Source: Pseudomonadota bacterium
Lineage (GTDB): Bacteria > Desulfobacterota > Desulfobulbia > Desulfobulbales > SURF-16
Reading direction: 5' to 3'
DNA: 36,618 nucleotides
NCBI GenBank assembly: GCA_018897105.1
Contig: JAHILF010000043.1
Coordinates: 1-36,618, forward strand
In this document: positions 2,776 to 10,180 of the stretch, piece by piece
Layout of the letters: each line of letters opens with the position of its first letter
How positions within the stretch are numbered: the stretch's first letter is position 1
Program-made: the position numbers and the translations under genes
Notes under the pieces: model-generated
Told to the model about the DNA's origin: nothing
The model's input: only the letters and a program-made list of their open reading frames with translations
Database searches by the model: none

Positions 2776-2819
2776 AAAAAAAATTCCCGGCAAACGAAGC
2801 TACCGTCTGCCGGGAATTT
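2776..2819 (-). terminator. Rho-independent terminator after the VPLPA-CTERM gene
   Basis: A perfect 12-bp stem (2781-2792 with 2808-2819, AAATTCCCGGCA and its complement) encloses a 15-base loop. Read on the minus strand it is followed by a run of eight T (complement of the A run at 2776-2783). It starts about 30 bp beyond the stop codon of the VPLPA-CTERM gene and should end the two-gene surface-protein transcript. Confidence 0.85.
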
Positions 2820-2847
2820 TATTTATAAAATGCTGAAAAAAGAAATA

Positions 2848-3426
2848 TTATCTGTTTTTCCGCCTTAAGGCAACCAAGCCGGCTAAACCTGAACCGAGGA
2901 GCCATAAGGCACCAGGGATTGGTACAGCATTAACTGTAAATGTAGAGGTAGCTTCATTAAAATTCACAAAAACATTTTTGCCAAAAACAAATGTATCTTT
3001 ATTCCCCGTTGCATCGGAAAGTTCCCAATAAGTAGTAATAAAATCGTCGGCTGTTTCAAATGATAAAATGTGGCCCGATACCAGAGGGTCATCACCCAAT
3101 GTATAAGCAAGGATCGTATTGCCAATGTCACTAATATCCCAATCAGTATTTGGCTCCATACCAAAATAACTCATATCTGTACCCGGCACAGCCGCATCAG
3201 TAACAGTCTCCAAACCAGCAGGTCCTATTTTAGTTGTATAATAAATATTCAGATCGGAAGTAGATAAAGATCCTCCTCCAGAGAGATTGTAATCAATCTG
3301 CAATCCGTACACACTATCAAGAAGGATTCCAGTCGCATCAATATCAATATAATAAATAGCAGCTTCTGCATTCGACGCAATTGAAAGCAAAAAACCCAAC
3401 ATCATTATTTTTTTCAAATTTTTCAT
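2848..3426 (-). CDS. Secreted protein with VPLPA/PEP-CTERM type sorting tail
   Basis: This is a 192-residue exported protein of otherwise unknown function. It begins with a short signal peptide (MKNLKKIMMLGFLLSIASNA). It ends in a classic sorting tail: the motif VPIPGALWLLGSG, a hydrophobic stretch and the basic end RRKNR. In known systems this tail holds the protein in the inner membrane until exosortase/XrtA cleaves it and passes it to the envelope or matrix. No exosortase gene lies in this window. The central part (about 25-165) is rich in Thr, Ser, Asp and aromatic residues and looks all-beta. The start at 3426 is chosen over an in-frame upstream one because GAGGG lies just before it and the signal peptide then begins at residue 1. 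It lies 16 bp after the dockerin gene, so both are probably one operon. Confidence 0.85.
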   Translation of the reverse strand: MKNLKKIMMLGFLLSIASNAEAAIYYIDIDATGILLDSVYGLQIDYNLSGGGSLSTSDLNIYYTTKIGPAGLETVTDAAVPGTDMSYFGMEPNTDWDISDIGNTILAYTLGDDPLVSGHILSFETADDFITTYWELSDATGNKDTFVFGKNVFVNFNEATSTFTVNAVPIPGALWLLGSGLAGLVALRRKNR

Positions 3427-3442: not shown

Positions 3443-4168
3443 TTATATTTTTGATTTAATGCACAATATATCCTGAACACTAATATCGCCAGAATCATTG
3501 CAATCAGAATATACAGGAAAATCAGTTGTTCCAATCAATGATTTAGCCCGCAATATATCTTGAACACTTATCGTCCCGTCTGCATTCGCGTCACCACGCT
3601 CACGAATAATAACATTACTCATATCCAGAGATGCTGTATTATCCAGCACCGCCTCACCTGTGGTGACAAAGTTGGCAAATTCACCGCCATCGGTCCTTGT
3701 GACGCCAAGCTCGAGTGCGGAACCAAAGTACGTTTCAGGTGAAGTCCCCGGGGCAGCACTTTCTGTCCTGTTAAATGTTGCCTTGCCGATGAGTTTGCGT
3801 GTGCCTGTCACTCCTTCAGTGGGAGTAATCTCGTCAATTTTGCCACAGAGAAAAACAACGGAACTGCCGGTATCTTGGGGATCCTGATAAGGATGTTTTA
3901 GCGCGCTTGTACCGAAATACCAGTCAGTATCGTTTTTTATCGCCGAAGCGAAAGTCAACTTGCTGCTGTCATAGCTCAGCTTCACCCCGGCGCTGACCAG
4001 GGGATCGGCCGTATTGATATCCGCATAGATATAGACAACCAGATCCGTATCTGTATAAGCCCCCTCGGCATACACATCCACATCAGCCGCCAATGCCGTG
4101 ATACTCGAAGCAGCTATAACAGCTGAAGAAATAATTCCCGCAATACTGCATAGTGTTTTTTTCTTCAC
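3443..4168 (-). CDS. Secreted cohesin-like plus dockerin type I protein
   Basis: The protein has 241 residues if read from a GTG at 4168. That start follows a strong GGAGGGG and places the signal peptide (VKKKTLCSIAGIISSAVIAA) at the N-terminus; the ATGs upstream at 4186 and 4225 lack such a site. Residues about 30-160 resemble a cohesin-like beta-sandwich (for example AGVKLSYDSSKLTFASAI). The C-terminus carries two calcium-binding dockerin repeats, with loops DANADGTISVQD and DCNDSGDISVQD, each followed by a helix. Dockerins bind cohesins in cellulosomes, but they also occur in non-cellulosomal bacteria. Here a cohesin-like fold and a dockerin share one chain, which could allow self-association; this is inference. 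The gene heads a two-gene operon with the VPLPA-CTERM protein and sits below a sigma-54 type promoter. Confidence 0.8.
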   Translation of the reverse strand: MKKKTLCSIAGIISSAVIAASSITALAADVDVYAEGAYTDTDLVVYIYADINTADPLVSAGVKLSYDSSKLTFASAIKNDTDWYFGTSALKHPYQDPQDTGSSVVFLCGKIDEITPTEGVTGTRKLIGKATFNRTESAAPGTSPETYFGSALELGVTRTDGGEFANFVTTGEAVLDNTASLDMSNVIIRERGDANADGTISVQDILRAKSLIGTTDFPVYSDCNDSGDISVQDILCIKSKI

Positions 4169-4263
4169 TTCAGCCCCTCCATTCATTGATCCCCAACCTG
4201 TAATCCAGTAATTGGGGAGAAACATGACACTTTAAGACTGCTAGAATTCATTAGTTTAAATCA

Positions 4264-4279
4264 AGCAAATCAGGTGCCA
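4264..4279 (-). promoter_or_regulatory. Sigma-54 (-24/-12) promoter of the dockerin/VPLPA-CTERM operon
   Basis: Read on the minus strand the site is TGGCACCTGATTTGCT: a perfect TGGCAC, five bases, then TTGCT, with exactly ten bases between GG and GC. This matches the RpoN consensus. Transcription would start near 4252, giving an untranslated leader of roughly 85 bases before the GTG at 4168. Such promoters need an ATP-driven enhancer-binding activator, and the dyad at 4383-4419 is a candidate binding site. Confidence 0.8.
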
Positions 4280-4608
4280 TCATATAAAACTTGAAAATAA
4301 AACTAAAAAAAATCTTTTATTTCAAAGGGTAAGCAATGCTGCGCCAAGATCAAACAGTTACAAATTATAAAAAAAACCCGAAAATAATATCCATTTTCCT
4401 GGAATTAATGGATATTATTCCGTAAAATTGGAAACAAATCCATAATAACTTGGCGGAGAATTGTTTGCCATCAAAAAATATACTCAGATCCCTTTTAATA
4501 ATTACTTAAATAAATAAATACAATACTGATAGCTTGTCAAGCAAATCCAGAGAAAACCTGACAAAAAAATAAACATCCCATCAAATACAACTGTTCGTCG
4601 GGAACGAA
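4280..4608. other. AT-rich intergenic region upstream of the sigma-54 promoter
   Basis: No gene is visible. The stretch is strongly AT-rich, with A/T tracts around 4303-4320, 4368-4378 and 4500-4520. Its one clear structure is the perfect dyad at 4383-4419. It lies between the dockerin operon and the leuD remnant, and plausibly holds activator-binding DNA for the sigma-54 promoter. Confidence 0.6.
4383..4419. promoter_or_regulatory. Perfect 13-bp inverted repeat, candidate activator site or terminator
   Basis: The arms AATAATATCCATT (4383-4395) and AATGGATATTATT (4407-4419) match perfectly around an 11-base centre. The centre lies about 125 bp upstream of the -24 element at 4279, the distance usual for sigma-54 enhancer-binding sites. 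On the minus strand an A/T stretch ending in a T run (complement of 4369-4377) follows the hairpin at about nine bases, so a terminator for transcripts coming from the beta-helix gene is an alternative. Confidence 0.5.
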
Positions 4609-4722
4609 TTAATATTTTTTATCAGCATAGGCCAACCAACCGCCGGCCAGCACCAGATCCTTATCACAAGAATTCAGGGTAAATTTGCAGGTGAATTTCT
4701 TTGTGCCGCTGGCGGTATGTTT
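4609..4722 (-). pseudogene. leuD 3'-end remnant (last ~37 codons)
   Basis: Read on the minus strand, this piece encodes the C-terminus of a 3-isopropylmalate dehydratase small subunit and ends in TAA. Its last 18 residues (DKDLVLAGGWLAYADKKY) are identical to those of the intact leuD at 6305-6820; further upstream it diverges (FTCKFTLNSC against FTCKFALNSF) and loses similarity near 4720. An in-frame stop lies just upstream (TAG complement at 4732-4734). By my alignment the two DNA copies differ at about 7 of the 88 bases nearest the stop. The differences in the last 18 codons are silent. This suggests the tail of a once-functional, slightly divergent leuD rather than a decaying copy. Together with intact leuD it brackets the beta-helix gene as direct repeats. 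Confidence 0.88.
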
Positions 4723-4752: not shown

Positions 4753-5997
4753 TCATTGAGCCCTGCCGAACTCCGCCGCAAAGAGAGCGACATCAAGACC
4801 GTCTACCACCCCGTCATTGTTCAGATCAGCCCTGCTGGGCGTAAGAGGCGGCGGTGCCGGAATCCCGTCAAATTCATCCGCACCCATGTCGTAACCCTCC
4901 CCTGCCGGCCGCAATTCATCATCAAGATCACTATCCGGGGCATTATCCGGCGATGCCGTATCTATGCAGGGAGATAATGCAGAGAGATGAAAATCGCCGC
5001 CGGCAACAAATTCGGGATTTTCATCGATATTGCCTTCTCCTGTATAGCCGCCCATGATATCGGAATAGGTTATCGTAATAGTCCCCGCAGCGCTGTATAT
5101 TTCCTGTAAGGCGGAATCAAAGTAAAAAATACTGTTGCGAATATAAGTGTAACTACTAGATCTACTATAAAGTCCGCCACCTGACTTCGCGTTATTCCAG
5201 GCAAAGGTACAATTGGTGAAGGAATGCGCACCCCCTCCAATATAAATTCCTCCTCCATTACCAGTGGCACTGTTACCAGTTATGGCACAGTTGGTGAAGG
5301 CCCCCCCGTATGAACAAATTCCTCCTCCATTATTACCGGTACTGTTACTGATTATGGTACAGTTGGTGAAAGAGAGAGTTCCGGTAGAATAAATTCCCCC
5401 CCCAGTATTACCGGCAGTGTTATCATTTATGATGCAGTTGCTGAAGGTACCGCCACTAGAGGTATAAACTCCCCCCCCAGTACCACCGGCACTGTTATCA
5501 TTTATGATGCAGTTGGTAAAGGAAGGGGTTCCCCCGGTAGAATAAATTCCCCCCCCAGTACCACCGGCACTGTTATCATTTATGATGCAGTTGCTGATCT
5601 GCGGAGAAGCGGAAGAACAATATATGCCGCCACCATAAGGTTCAGTACCAGCAACCGAGCCGTTGATAATTTTAAACCCGTCCAGCACGGTTAAATTACT
5701 TACATTCGTAAAGGAAACCCCCCTTCCAACCCCCTCACAGTCTATGATGGTATTTTCCGGGCCTTCTTCCGATTTGATCGTTATGATTTTATTTATTGTT
5801 ATGTTTTTGTTTCCCTCTCCCGTATAGGTCCCGGCCCTGACAATGATGGTCTCACCACCCCAGGTTGCATCCACCGCCGCCTGGATGGTCGGATAATCAT
5901 CAGGCACATAATAGGTGGCGCAGAAAGCCGGTTCATGCAAAACAACAAGGAATAACAACCCGACTAACGAAATCCAGAAAGCTTTTTTCCCCCACAT
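4753..5997 (-). CDS. Secreted right-handed beta-helix protein with EF-hand/dockerin-like tail
   Basis: The 414-residue protein has a signal peptide (cleavage probably after FCA, residue 27), then a short TYYVPDDYPTIQAAV motif typical of secreted parallel beta-helices. About residues 60-310 are Asn/Gly/Ser-rich coils, each near 25-26 residues and built on the theme GGGIYSTGG...FTNCIINDNSAG. A choice-of-anchor-Q-like segment follows (NIDENPEFVAGGDFHL through DMGADEF). The end is one calcium-loop motif (ADLNNDGVVDGLDVALFAAEF), half of a dockerin pair. Beta-helix proteins of this kind are surface adhesins or polysaccharide-active proteins; no catalytic residues can be named. The start is supported by GAGGAG eight bases upstream. 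The gene lies between the leuD remnant and intact leuD, suggesting acquisition by recombination at leuD. Confidence 0.85.
   Translation of the reverse strand: MWGKKAFWISLVGLLFLVVLHEPAFCATYYVPDDYPTIQAAVDATWGGETIIVRAGTYTGEGNKNITINKIITIKSEEGPENTIIDCEGVGRGVSFTNVSNLTVLDGFKIINGSVAGTEPYGGGIYCSSASPQISNCIINDNSAGGTGGGIYSTGGTPSFTNCIINDNSAGGTGGGVYTSSGGTFSNCIINDNTAGNTGGGIYSTGTLSFTNCTIISNSTGNNGGGICSYGGAFTNCAITGNSATGNGGGIYIGGGAHSFTNCTFAWNNAKSGGGLYSRSSSYTYIRNSIFYFDSALQEIYSAAGTITITYSDIMGGYTGEGNIDENPEFVAGGDFHLSALSPCIDTASPDNAPDSDLDDELRPAGEGYDMGADEFDGIPAPPPLTPSRADLNNDGVVDGLDVALFAAEFGRAQ
5262..5593. repeat. Imperfect 75-78 bp tandem repeats inside the beta-helix gene
   Basis: About five diverged units code for successive beta-helix coils. 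The three best conserved share a 30-base core at 5411-5440, 5486-5515 and 5564-5593, so the periods are 75 and 78 bp, 25 and 26 codons. The cores at 5486 and 5564 are identical. Poly-C runs next to the cores vary in length. Such repeats can gain or lose coils by slippage or recombination without shifting frame. Confidence 0.8.
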
Positions 5998-6304: not shown

Positions 6305-6820
6305 CTAATATTTTTTATCGGCATAGGCCAGCCAGCCGCCTGCCAGCACCAGATCCTTATCAAAAGAATTCAGGGCAAATTTACAGGTGAATTCTCTGCT
6401 GCCGCGGGCAATGAGGGTTTCCTTATCCATGTCAACCGAGATGGTTACCCCTGACCCAAGAGCAAAAAGCGCATCAATATCTTTTTTCGGCAACTCAATG
6501 GCCAGCATACCGCAGTTGAACATATTCTGCCGGAAAATTCTGGCAAAACTTTCGGCAATAACCACATTGATGTCATTCACCTCAAAAACCCACACAGCGT
6601 GTTCCCTGGAGGAACCGCAGCCGAAATTGGAACGGGTGACGATGACTTTCGCACCTTTCGCATCTGCCGCCGGATCAAATCCCGGCAGTTTCAGGTCTTC
6701 CAGGATAAAGGGCTTTAAGTCCTCCTTGGCATTTTCGGTCAGATATTTCGCCGGAATAATCTCATCTGTATTGATATCGTTTCTGTCCAGAAAAAGTACC
6801 GGACCACCGAATGTCTTCAT
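6305..6820 (-). CDS. leuD: 3-isopropylmalate dehydratase small subunit
   Basis: LeuD pairs with LeuC to isomerise 2-isopropylmalate to 3-isopropylmalate in leucine biosynthesis in the cytoplasm. The 171-residue size fits the short archaeal/HacB-type small subunits. The N-terminus shows DRNDINTDEIIPAKYL, and the substrate-binding loop FGCGSSREHAVW is followed by VVIAESFARIFRQNMFNCG. The start at 6820 (MKTFGG) has a GAGG six bases upstream; the in-frame TTG at 6913 would add residues coded by the intergenic repeat and is rejected. The gene lies about 190 bp downstream of leuC in the same direction, separated by the repeat region at 6837-7011. Its 3' end is the copy matched by the remnant at 4609-4722. 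Confidence 0.95.
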   Translation of the reverse strand: MKTFGGPVLFLDRNDINTDEIIPAKYLTENAKEDLKPFILEDLKLPGFDPAADAKGAKVIVTRSNFGCGSSREHAVWVFEVNDINVVIAESFARIFRQNMFNCGMLAIELPKKDIDALFALGSGVTISVDMDKETLIARGSREFTCKFALNSFDKDLVLAGGWLAYADKKY

Positions 6821-8298: not shown

Positions 8299-8494
8299 TG
8301 TTTGGTATCCTCCCAATAAACAGTAAAAAAATCCCAGTCCCGCAGACCGGAATATGCAGAACTGCAACATTAATAGATACTGTCAAGTTAATCAATTTTT
8401 TTTATAGTTTGTATCCTGCCAATAATATGCTATAAAAATCAATATATTGTCATTTAATACTCTTTTATCAGCTTATTTTAAGCCAAATTTCCCC

Positions 8495-10180
8495 ATGTCG
8501 AAAAACAAGCAGCAACCCTTACCCGCAAATCTGCCGCCTGAACAATCAGATTCATCCCCTCAGACCATGATTGAGCAGATTTACTCCATTTGCCAAACGG
8601 AATACGGCCGGGTTGACCCAAAACTGAAACAGCTTTTCACCGACGTGACAGCCCTGTATGCCGGCGAGTGGCCGCAATTTGAGGCCTGCCAGGTGGGTTA
8701 TCATAATCTGCTACACTGCCTGGAAGTTGCCCTTGCCACGGCCCGCATGACAGGCGGATGGAACAAAGCCAATTCCGACCGGGCCATTGCCAGACCCATA
8801 TTTCTCGCCGGTATCGCCGCATCGCTGCTGCATGACTCAGGCTACCTGAAAGACAAAAATGATCGCCAGGGCAAAGGCGGAAAGTATACCTTTTCACATG
8901 TGGGCCGCAGCCGGGATCTCGCCTGCAATTATCTTAGCAGAAAAAAATGGAGTAAAAAAGACATCACTTTTATCTGCCGGATGATTGGGGCCACTGAATT
9001 CGGCGAACAGCCGGATATGACCGTCTTCGAAAACGATGAGCACCTGGTCATGGCACAAATGGTTGCCTCGGCGGATCTCATTGCCCAGATGGCTGACATC
9101 AACTATATCAGACGCCTTCATGACCTCCATGATGAATTTCTAGAGGCATACGATGCGGAAGACAGAAAAAATCTCCGGAAACGGGCTGTCCATGTATACG
9201 ATTCCTTTCAGGAAATGCTCAACACCACCCCGGAATTCTATGAGAATTTTATTCTGCCGAGATTGAAACTCTTTAAGCGAATGGACAACTATCTTGTCTC
9301 CTTTTTCGCCGATGGCAGAAATCCCTATTTTGAAAGCATCACCGCCAATCTCTCGGGCCAGCTTTTAAGCAAGCGGGTCCAATGGCAGATGCTTGGTGAT
9401 ATTTTGCAGGGGCTTGGTCTGGTGGACCCCGATGTCCTCAATGAGGCCCTGACCAGACAGCAGCAGGGAAAAGCGGCCCAGAGTTCTGACACGCAACAAT
9501 CCATAGAACAACAGGATATCGGTGCACAGTTACTTGACTGGCTGCAATTAAGATGTACAGGACAGGCCCGCCTGGGCGATATTCTCATGGAGATGAATGC
9601 CGTCGATCCACGCGCACTGCGCACTGGACTGATTTCTCAACTGCTGCCGCAACAGCTCACAAAAGAACTGACCTACGATGAACTTCTCGCCCTGTTGCAG
9701 ATATCGCTCCTGGCGCAAAACCTCTATGATGATCCATGGGTATTTGCCCAGATCATTGAAATGGCCGTCAAGCTTCTCGGCAGCGAATCAGGTTCACTCA
9801 TGCTGGCCCACCGCCGGAAAAACGAATTGGTCACCGCCATTCACTTCGGCACACACAAAGAGCAGCTCGAAGGCAGATCTATCCCCATAGACAAAGGGCT
9901 TTCCGGCTGGGTCTATCGCCATGCCCGGGCCGCCTTTGTCACCAAATCCGCCATTGGCGATGTTGCCTGGGAAAATTCCTTTCCCGGCGGAGAAGAAATT
10001 CACAATGTCCTTGCCGTTCCCCTGCATATCAATGGCGAAATCATCGGCGTCGCCGAAGTGATCAACAAACAACATGGCAATTTCAACGACCATGACGTCG
10101 ATATTCTCACCCTGCTCGCCAATGTCATGACCTATTCCCTGTCATTGGTAAAAAAATTACAGCTCAATAAAAAATCATGA
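8495..10180 (+). CDS. HD-domain phosphohydrolase with C-terminal GAF domain
   Basis: This soluble protein has 561 residues from the ATG at 8495. An in-frame TTG at 8447 is a weaker alternative; neither has a strong ribosome site. Residues about 60-210 form an HD/PDEase-type domain with His at YHNLLHCLE (near 70), the HD pair in SLLHDSGYL (near 111), and further His and Asp residues in FSHVGRS and ASADLIAQ. Residues about 300-390 contain two copies of a short MshEN-like helical motif (LGDILQGLGLVDPDVL and LGDILMEMNAVDPRAL). Residues about 400-555 are a GAF domain (SGSLMLAHRR, GLSGWVYRHA, VLAVPLHINGEIIGVAEVIN). A ligand-gated nucleotide phosphodiesterase is likely, substrate unknown. Its stop overlaps the yejA start by 4 bp, so it is probably cotranslated with the importer. 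Confidence 0.85.
   Translation: MSKNKQQPLPANLPPEQSDSSPQTMIEQIYSICQTEYGRVDPKLKQLFTDVTALYAGEWPQFEACQVGYHNLLHCLEVALATARMTGGWNKANSDRAIARPIFLAGIAASLLHDSGYLKDKNDRQGKGGKYTFSHVGRSRDLACNYLSRKKWSKKDITFICRMIGATEFGEQPDMTVFENDEHLVMAQMVASADLIAQMADINYIRRLHDLHDEFLEAYDAEDRKNLRKRAVHVYDSFQEMLNTTPEFYENFILPRLKLFKRMDNYLVSFFADGRNPYFESITANLSGQLLSKRVQWQMLGDILQGLGLVDPDVLNEALTRQQQGKAAQSSDTQQSIEQQDIGAQLLDWLQLRCTGQARLGDILMEMNAVDPRALRTGLISQLLPQQLTKELTYDELLALLQISLLAQNLYDDPWVFAQIIEMAVKLLGSESGSLMLAHRRKNELVTAIHFGTHKEQLEGRSIPIDKGLSGWVYRHARAAFVTKSAIGDVAWENSFPGGEEIHNVLAVPLHINGEIIGVAEVINKQHGNFNDHDVDILTLLANVMTYSLSLVKKLQLNKKS

Follow-up and report, generated by a model that had tools for sequence, protein, structure and literature searches.

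A predicted sigma-54 promoter with paired candidate activator sites precedes a dockerin/VPLPA-CTERM operon that probably belongs to a PEP-CTERM regulon

In Zoogloea, RpoN together with the PrsK/PrsR pair reportedly controls PEP-CTERM proteins, and a preliminary description of the locus studied here proposed the same circuit on this basis. A second RpoN-linked example comes from Aquincola tertiaricarbonis, a betaproteobacterium. In the accessible text of Haft et al. (2006; PMC1569441), a 17-nt motif 1 ending in TTTACA lies on average 62.8 nt (32–92) before a sigma-54 motif 2, with PrsR as the regulator. The accessible parts of two further reports describe pepA of Aquincola as RpoN1-dependent, with a TGGCAC/CTGCTT promoter and a mapped start (PMC9850573), and five predicted PEP-CTERM targets as enriched in DAP-chip with DVUA0057 of Desulfovibrio vulgaris (PMC3333781). 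As far as the accessible portions of this literature extend, the activator sites published for PEP-CTERM genes are those of a single system, with a regulator deduced from phylogenetic profiling, and the words PEP-CTERM and exosortase are absent from the available main text of a survey published in 2025 on sigma-54 regulons (PMC12316311).

The window, meaning the whole 36,618-nt stretch of DNA that was analysed, contains a two-gene operon (Table 1) whose first product appears, from its sequence features, to be a secreted scaffold-type protein and whose second appears to be surface-sorted. The type I dockerin of the first gene scores 23.4 bits with PF00404 (cut-off 22.9), PDB profiles likewise match this protein to dockerins, and the second gene scores 27 bits with the VPLPA-CTERM model TIGR03370 (cut-off 25.35). 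A Pfam profile search returned no cohesin match for the first-gene protein. Its AlphaFold2 model, built from 8 sequences (pLDDT 70.9), gave cohesins as the top Foldseek matches (best E 2.2e-06, TM to target about 0.5), pointing to a possible cohesin-like domain. The two-gene operon is kept in three congeners (G018, G020 and G021), where a VPLPA gene likewise adjoins the first-gene homolog; the homologs L071, L072 and L074 are 78, 73 and 52% identical to the first gene product. We think it likely that RNA polymerase with sigma-54 would transcribe the operon from 4279–4264, that an NtrC-family enhancer-binding protein would bind two inverted 17-nt sites at 4390–4432 and activate the polymerase by looping from about 110–150 bp upstream of the -24 element, that the operon falls within an exopolysaccharide-linked surface-protein regulon, and that the activator is most likely a PAS-AAA+-Fis protein encoded on contig C113 of the same genome (G000), rather than PrsR.

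Table 1 Location of the features discussed, in the window unless a contig or locus is named
Feature	Position	Strand	Remarks
Likely operon terminator	2776..2824	minus	inverted repeat and T-run after the operon
Second gene	2848..3426	minus	VPLPA-CTERM protein (TIGR03370)
First gene	3443..4168	minus	signal peptide (by eye), possible cohesin-like domain, type I dockerin
Predicted sigma-54 -24/-12 promoter	4264..4279	minus	TGGCACCTGATTTGCT (TGGCAC-N5-TTGCT); GG-N10-GC spacing
Perfect 13-bp inverted repeat	4383..4419		arms 4383-4395 and 4407-4419, 13/13 paired; 11-nt loop
Candidate activator site B	4390..4406	minus	AATTCCAGGAAAATGGA; 20.3 bits; within the dyad
Candidate activator site A	4416..4432	plus	TATTCCGTAAAATTGGA; 15.7 bits; inverted relative to site B
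Candidate activator gene	G000:C113, L121:4048-5544	minus	PAS, sigma-54 AAA+, Fis helix-turn-helix
Two histidine kinase-activator-PEP-CTERM clusters	C161, C91; L119:2058-6393, L120:2940-6865		with sigma-54 sites
PEP-CTERM gene carrying a TTTACA-type box, and the adjoining prsR	L069:7014-8420, 8421-9023 and L208:941-6253		G000, G019

The preliminary description had read the promoter element as a full RpoN consensus at an apt distance from a GTG start, and both points hold. The element begins 111 nt before the GTG at 4168, which has GGAGGGG upstream of it, and predicts a transcript start near 4253. Consensus, GG-N10-GC spacing and an rpoN gene in the genome (444.9 bits), the last as that description had expected, are thus all present. 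A genome search for the TGGCAC-N5-TTGC-type pattern, proposed at the same time, returned 17 exact TGGCACN5TTGCW sites in G000 vs 2 for the reversed pattern. By eye, several of the 17 precede genes that we take to resemble amtB, nitrogenase-type, modE-like and flagellar rod genes. Seven fall within a stop-to-stop frame 100 codons or longer, so not every exact match need be a promoter, which lends something to the reading that the window match is due to chance and that an ordinary promoter drives the operon. We regard this as extremely unlikely, given that the consensus is kept in three orthologs despite divergent flanks (L071, L072 and L074, at -111, -113 and -91) and that sigma-54 sites are enriched across the whole PEP-CTERM gene set. 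Conservation in relatives, another expectation of the earlier work, is nevertheless partial: the consensus promoter is absent from the other four (L073, L075, L076 and L077) of the seven named homologs compared, a set that leaves out L083 and L084, for which the script found no start. L073 has GG-N10-GA in place of the consensus and keeps the enhancer at 21.2 bits. On this sequence evidence we consider the sigma-54 promoter before the window operon to be real.

The suggested link between RpoN and PEP-CTERM genes also extends beyond the window. Searching for VPLPA-CTERM matches yielded 25 places in G000 and 75 in five congeners (G017–G021), from which 88 genes were scored (21 + 67). Four of the 25 own places (L060, L065, L066 and L067) lacked a CTERM-like frame; of the congener places four were left out (two from G019 and a single one from each of G018 and G021), the remaining 71 represent 70 loci, L181 covering two places and being scored once, and L167, L177 and L192 gave no ORF. 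With start codons chosen by script and a site counted at a score of at least 12.5 of 15.2 within -330 to -20, coding-strand sigma-54 sites were found before 34 of the 88 genes and reverse-strand sites before 2, compared with 10 (forward) and 8 (reverse) of 185 ordinary ORFs. Excluding duplicate and mis-framed rows (L132 and L161 are a single gene entered twice, and L191 is mis-framed), the count is 32/86. The window operon, L053 and L055 are counted among the 88 as lacking a site, their promoters lying further upstream. Genes with PEP-type tails carry a site in 6/7 own and 13/17 congener cases, and those with VPxPx tails in 3/14 and 12/50, the other 11/14 and 38/50 having none in the scanned stretch. 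Several of the congener genes represent conservation rather than independent cases, because their ends suggest orthologs of the own genes. At L053 (G000:C81), a gene for a secreted proline-rich protein lies 12 bp before a VPLPA-CTERM gene, and the region upstream holds two enhancer sites in addition to the sigma-54 site.

Upstream of the window promoter, a perfect 37-bp dyad had been reported; the 13-bp arms are indeed exact, but only 26 of the 37 bases pair. An equally good dyad (loop up to 20) arose in one of 300 first-order random sequences derived from the 527-bp intergenic region. The dyad spans all of site B and four bases of site A, whose centres are 21 bp apart. Site B reaches its score with a matrix built without the window, a value attained by 1 of 1000 random sequences. 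A counterpart of site B is present in L071, L072, L073 and L074, and the geometry of the pair is repeated in L072 and L074, with one site only in L071. We infer that the pair at 4390–4432 comprises putative binding sites of the activator. The dyad had itself been suggested as the activator's operator, and that suggestion survives in part: an activator-site motif overlaps the dyad, but its AATAATATCC arms are unconserved, unlike the pair of TTCCGGAA-type sites. Dyads of the same type, which the preliminary description suggested looking for elsewhere in the genome, were not found; the inner 10-bp arms have no other occurrence in the genome at spacings 5–20, and on comparison by eye the arms AATAATAT are not kept in the orthologs. 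AATAATATCC was accordingly rejected as a genus-wide operator. The dyad seems to point to the right place, with a predicted conserved operator, the TTCCGGAA-type pair, that differs in sequence from the earlier proposal.

The dyad might instead be the terminator of the upstream beta-helix gene, unconnected with activation. A T8 run follows it and the minus-strand RNA folds at -14.6 kcal/mol (random -7.6, s.d. 3.8), as a terminator might; however, the stem is A+T-rich, the dyad starts 334 bp beyond the beta-helix stop codon, and the fold is lost in L072 (-7.1) and L074 (-9.6), where it is no better than random and the activator sites are kept. We therefore judge this explanation unlikely and favour a role of the region in activation, although the dyad may serve both purposes.

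The 17-nt motif common to many PEP-CTERM promoters is WATTCCGGAAAANYGGA (34 instances). The 8-mer TTCCGGAA had been spotted by eye before an enumeration of 8-mers in 12 own promoters, chosen by their sigma-54 sites, ranked it first, with 10/12 promoters matching at no more than one mismatch and 3/12 exactly; the background at no more than one mismatch is 10.7% of 169 AT-rich chunks. No exact TTCCGGAA was found within 260 bp upstream of 15 other G000 sigma-54 sites. An EM run on the own promoters, leaving out the weak L049, returned ATTTCCGGGAAAATGGA, and a matrix was built from 8 of its 11 matches, those of L047, L057 and L064 being dropped because they lay elsewhere. On 25 congener promoters this matrix averaged 11.7 bits (random 4.3, highest random mean 6.7). 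At least 12 bits were reached in 12/25 of them vs 1.7% of 1860 random 160-bp chunks, and at least 9 bits in 16/25 vs a random mean of 2.56 and a highest random count of 6. The 9-bit level was also reached in 1/15 other own sigma-54 promoters, in 7/36 PEP-CTERM genes that lack a sigma-54 site and in 7.3% of the random chunks.

Sites of at least 12 bits lie between -500 and -120 in 7/21 own genes, 23/66 congener genes and 7/185 ordinary ORFs. Enhancer (-500 to -120 of the start) and promoter occur together in 6/21 own and 14/66 congener genes, and no ordinary ORF (0/185) has an enhancer site within -210 to -50 of a promoter, a count taken relative to the promoter rather than, as in the PEP-CTERM sets, to the start. 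When 180 bp were searched, 24/40 promoters had a 12-bit site, with the best centre at -97 to -185 in 23/24; the exception, L057, has its best site at -211. Because enhancer and sigma-54 sites recur in this way before many PEP-CTERM genes of the genus, the window operon probably belongs to an exopolysaccharide-linked regulon. As a regulon marker alone, one-mismatch TTTTCCGGAAAA was rejected as too noisy genome-wide (99 places vs 46 for the reversed control). Exact TTTTCCGGAAAA occurs at 8 places, two of them upstream of PEP-CTERM genes, nearby on C113 and distant on C38. Two PEP-CTERM genes, L158 and L176, have enhancers of 20.6 and 13.5 bits and no recognised sigma-54 site. Searches of open-access main texts turned up no description of an enhancer of the TTCCGGAA type acting on PEP-CTERM genes.

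The window set resembles the PEP-CTERM box/PrsR system, as set out in the accessible text of PMC1569441, in joining a sigma-54 motif to an upstream 17-nt motif and in its exopolysaccharide link. It differs in the motif, WATTCCGGAAAANYGGA instead of a box ending in TTTACA, in its position, usually centred 97–185 bp before the -24 element instead of 62.8 nt on average (32–92), and in that PrsR does not track the motif. The operon could nonetheless be a target of the classical PrsK/PrsR circuit, as first proposed. One PrsR-family protein in G000 exceeds its cut-off (509.3 vs 502.6 bits), at C31 and adjoining a PEP-CTERM gene; G019 has PrsR, PrsK (310.4 vs 300 bits) and a PEP-CTERM gene on one contig; and the Desulfovibrio regulator, in the available part of that report, enriches its five predicted PEP-CTERM targets (PMC3333781). 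Yet no PrsK exceeds the cut-off in G000 (best 104.1 of 300 bits, with 79 of 158 candidates scored) and no kinase was found among the scanned neighbours of its prsR, so that of a pair usually found in tandem G000 shows PrsR but not PrsK. PrsR gave no match at 1e-125 in G017, G018, G020 and G021 (47 candidates scored in each), and G018, G020 and G021 nonetheless keep enhancer and sigma-54 sites at PEP-CTERM genes. Above its cut-off, PrsR is present in 6/22 family genomes, and within the genus only in G000 and G019 (2/6).

The distribution of the box points the same way. TGTCG-N6-TTTACA, like TGTCGATTTTTTTTACA and TGTCGATTTTCTTTACA, occurs before L064 and L135 only, 2/88 PEP-CTERM genes, which adjoin the prsR of G000 and G019. 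TTTACA alone precedes 9/88, and the 260 bp upstream of the window promoter do not contain it, so a Haft-type motif 1, as judged from its described ending and not from the published logo, was not found there. A classical module with its own box thus exists in the genus, and the window, which lacks that box, is set apart from it. PrsR was rejected as the window activator, with the box absent and no PrsR match at 1e-125 in 4/5 congeners, three of which carry the enhancer, and we consider control by PrsK/PrsR quite improbable. A parallel search for prsK, prsR and an exosortase in G000, also put forward in the preliminary description, recovered prsR and neither of the others.

The best candidate activator is, most likely, the C113 PAS-AAA+-Fis protein rather than PrsR. 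Its gene lies between a nucleotide-sugar dehydrogenase gene and a PilZ gene and adjoins a PEP-CTERM gene; PEP-CTERM genes beside activators of this type have enhancers of 16.4 to 23.4 bits. In the stretches of G021, G018 and G020 compared, the activator is 97, 95 and 88% identical, and all three genes of the group (dehydrogenase, activator and PilZ) are conserved with a PEP-CTERM gene alongside, in opposite orientation in G021. The activator's DNA-binding region is nearly unchanged in these three congeners and differs from that of PrsR; the neighbouring PEP-CTERM proteins are themselves divergent. Because G000 has about 40 sigma-54 activators, the choice of C113 draws on its neighbourhood and its presence in the three congeners compared. 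DVUA0057, from a sulfate reducer, offers a parallel as an activator tied to PEP-CTERM genes; according to the accessible text it is a response regulator (PMC3333781), whereas the C113 candidate has a PAS domain and gave no match to a receiver domain. Similarly, Aquincola pepA shares with the window an RpoN-type promoter before a PEP-CTERM gene, but Aquincola has prsK and prsR, with prsT as the downstream gene, and the accessible part of the report describes no dockerin pair there (PMC9850573). The PilZ gene beside the candidate activator (L013) also has a sigma-54 site, but it was rejected as an enhancer case, its upstream stretch remaining below 9 bits.

No exosortase was found in G000 or G018, while 13/22 family genomes have one. 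In G021 it lies about 10 kb beyond the C113-type activator; synteny between this region and the G000 contig is only patchy, and the contig breaks off about 3 kb before the corresponding position of the exosortase gene. A true lack in G000 was set aside in favour of the contig end as the simpler explanation. In the two histidine kinase-activator clusters the enhancer matches are weak or displaced (L047, 9.0 bits at -246; L057, 13.4 bits at -222 and 10.3 bits nearer), so local circuits may exist too.

We see evenly balanced prospects for a second, PrsR-independent PEP-CTERM circuit, in which a PAS-type orphan activator beside exopolysaccharide/exosortase genes would read paired WATTCCGGAAAANYGGA sites and co-regulate surface-sorted proteins together with a cohesin-dockerin protein. 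If true, the two types of circuit can coexist within one genus, and even within G000 alone. A second tight-consensus enhancer with a named candidate activator provides a testable prediction and a regulon list, and the placing of cohesin-dockerin proteins under surface-protein control becomes a question open to study in uncultured relatives of Desulfobulbaceae and Desulfurivibrio.

Two copies of the leuD 3' end lie in the window (4610-4713 and 6306-6409; 105 bp, 89.5%), flanking the beta-helix gene at 4753-5997, whose dockerin match is weak and below cut-off. By eye, leuD ends just upstream of the operon in L073 and L074. The beta-helix gene looks inserted, because leuD 3' copies flank it and leuD abuts the operon in those two homologs.
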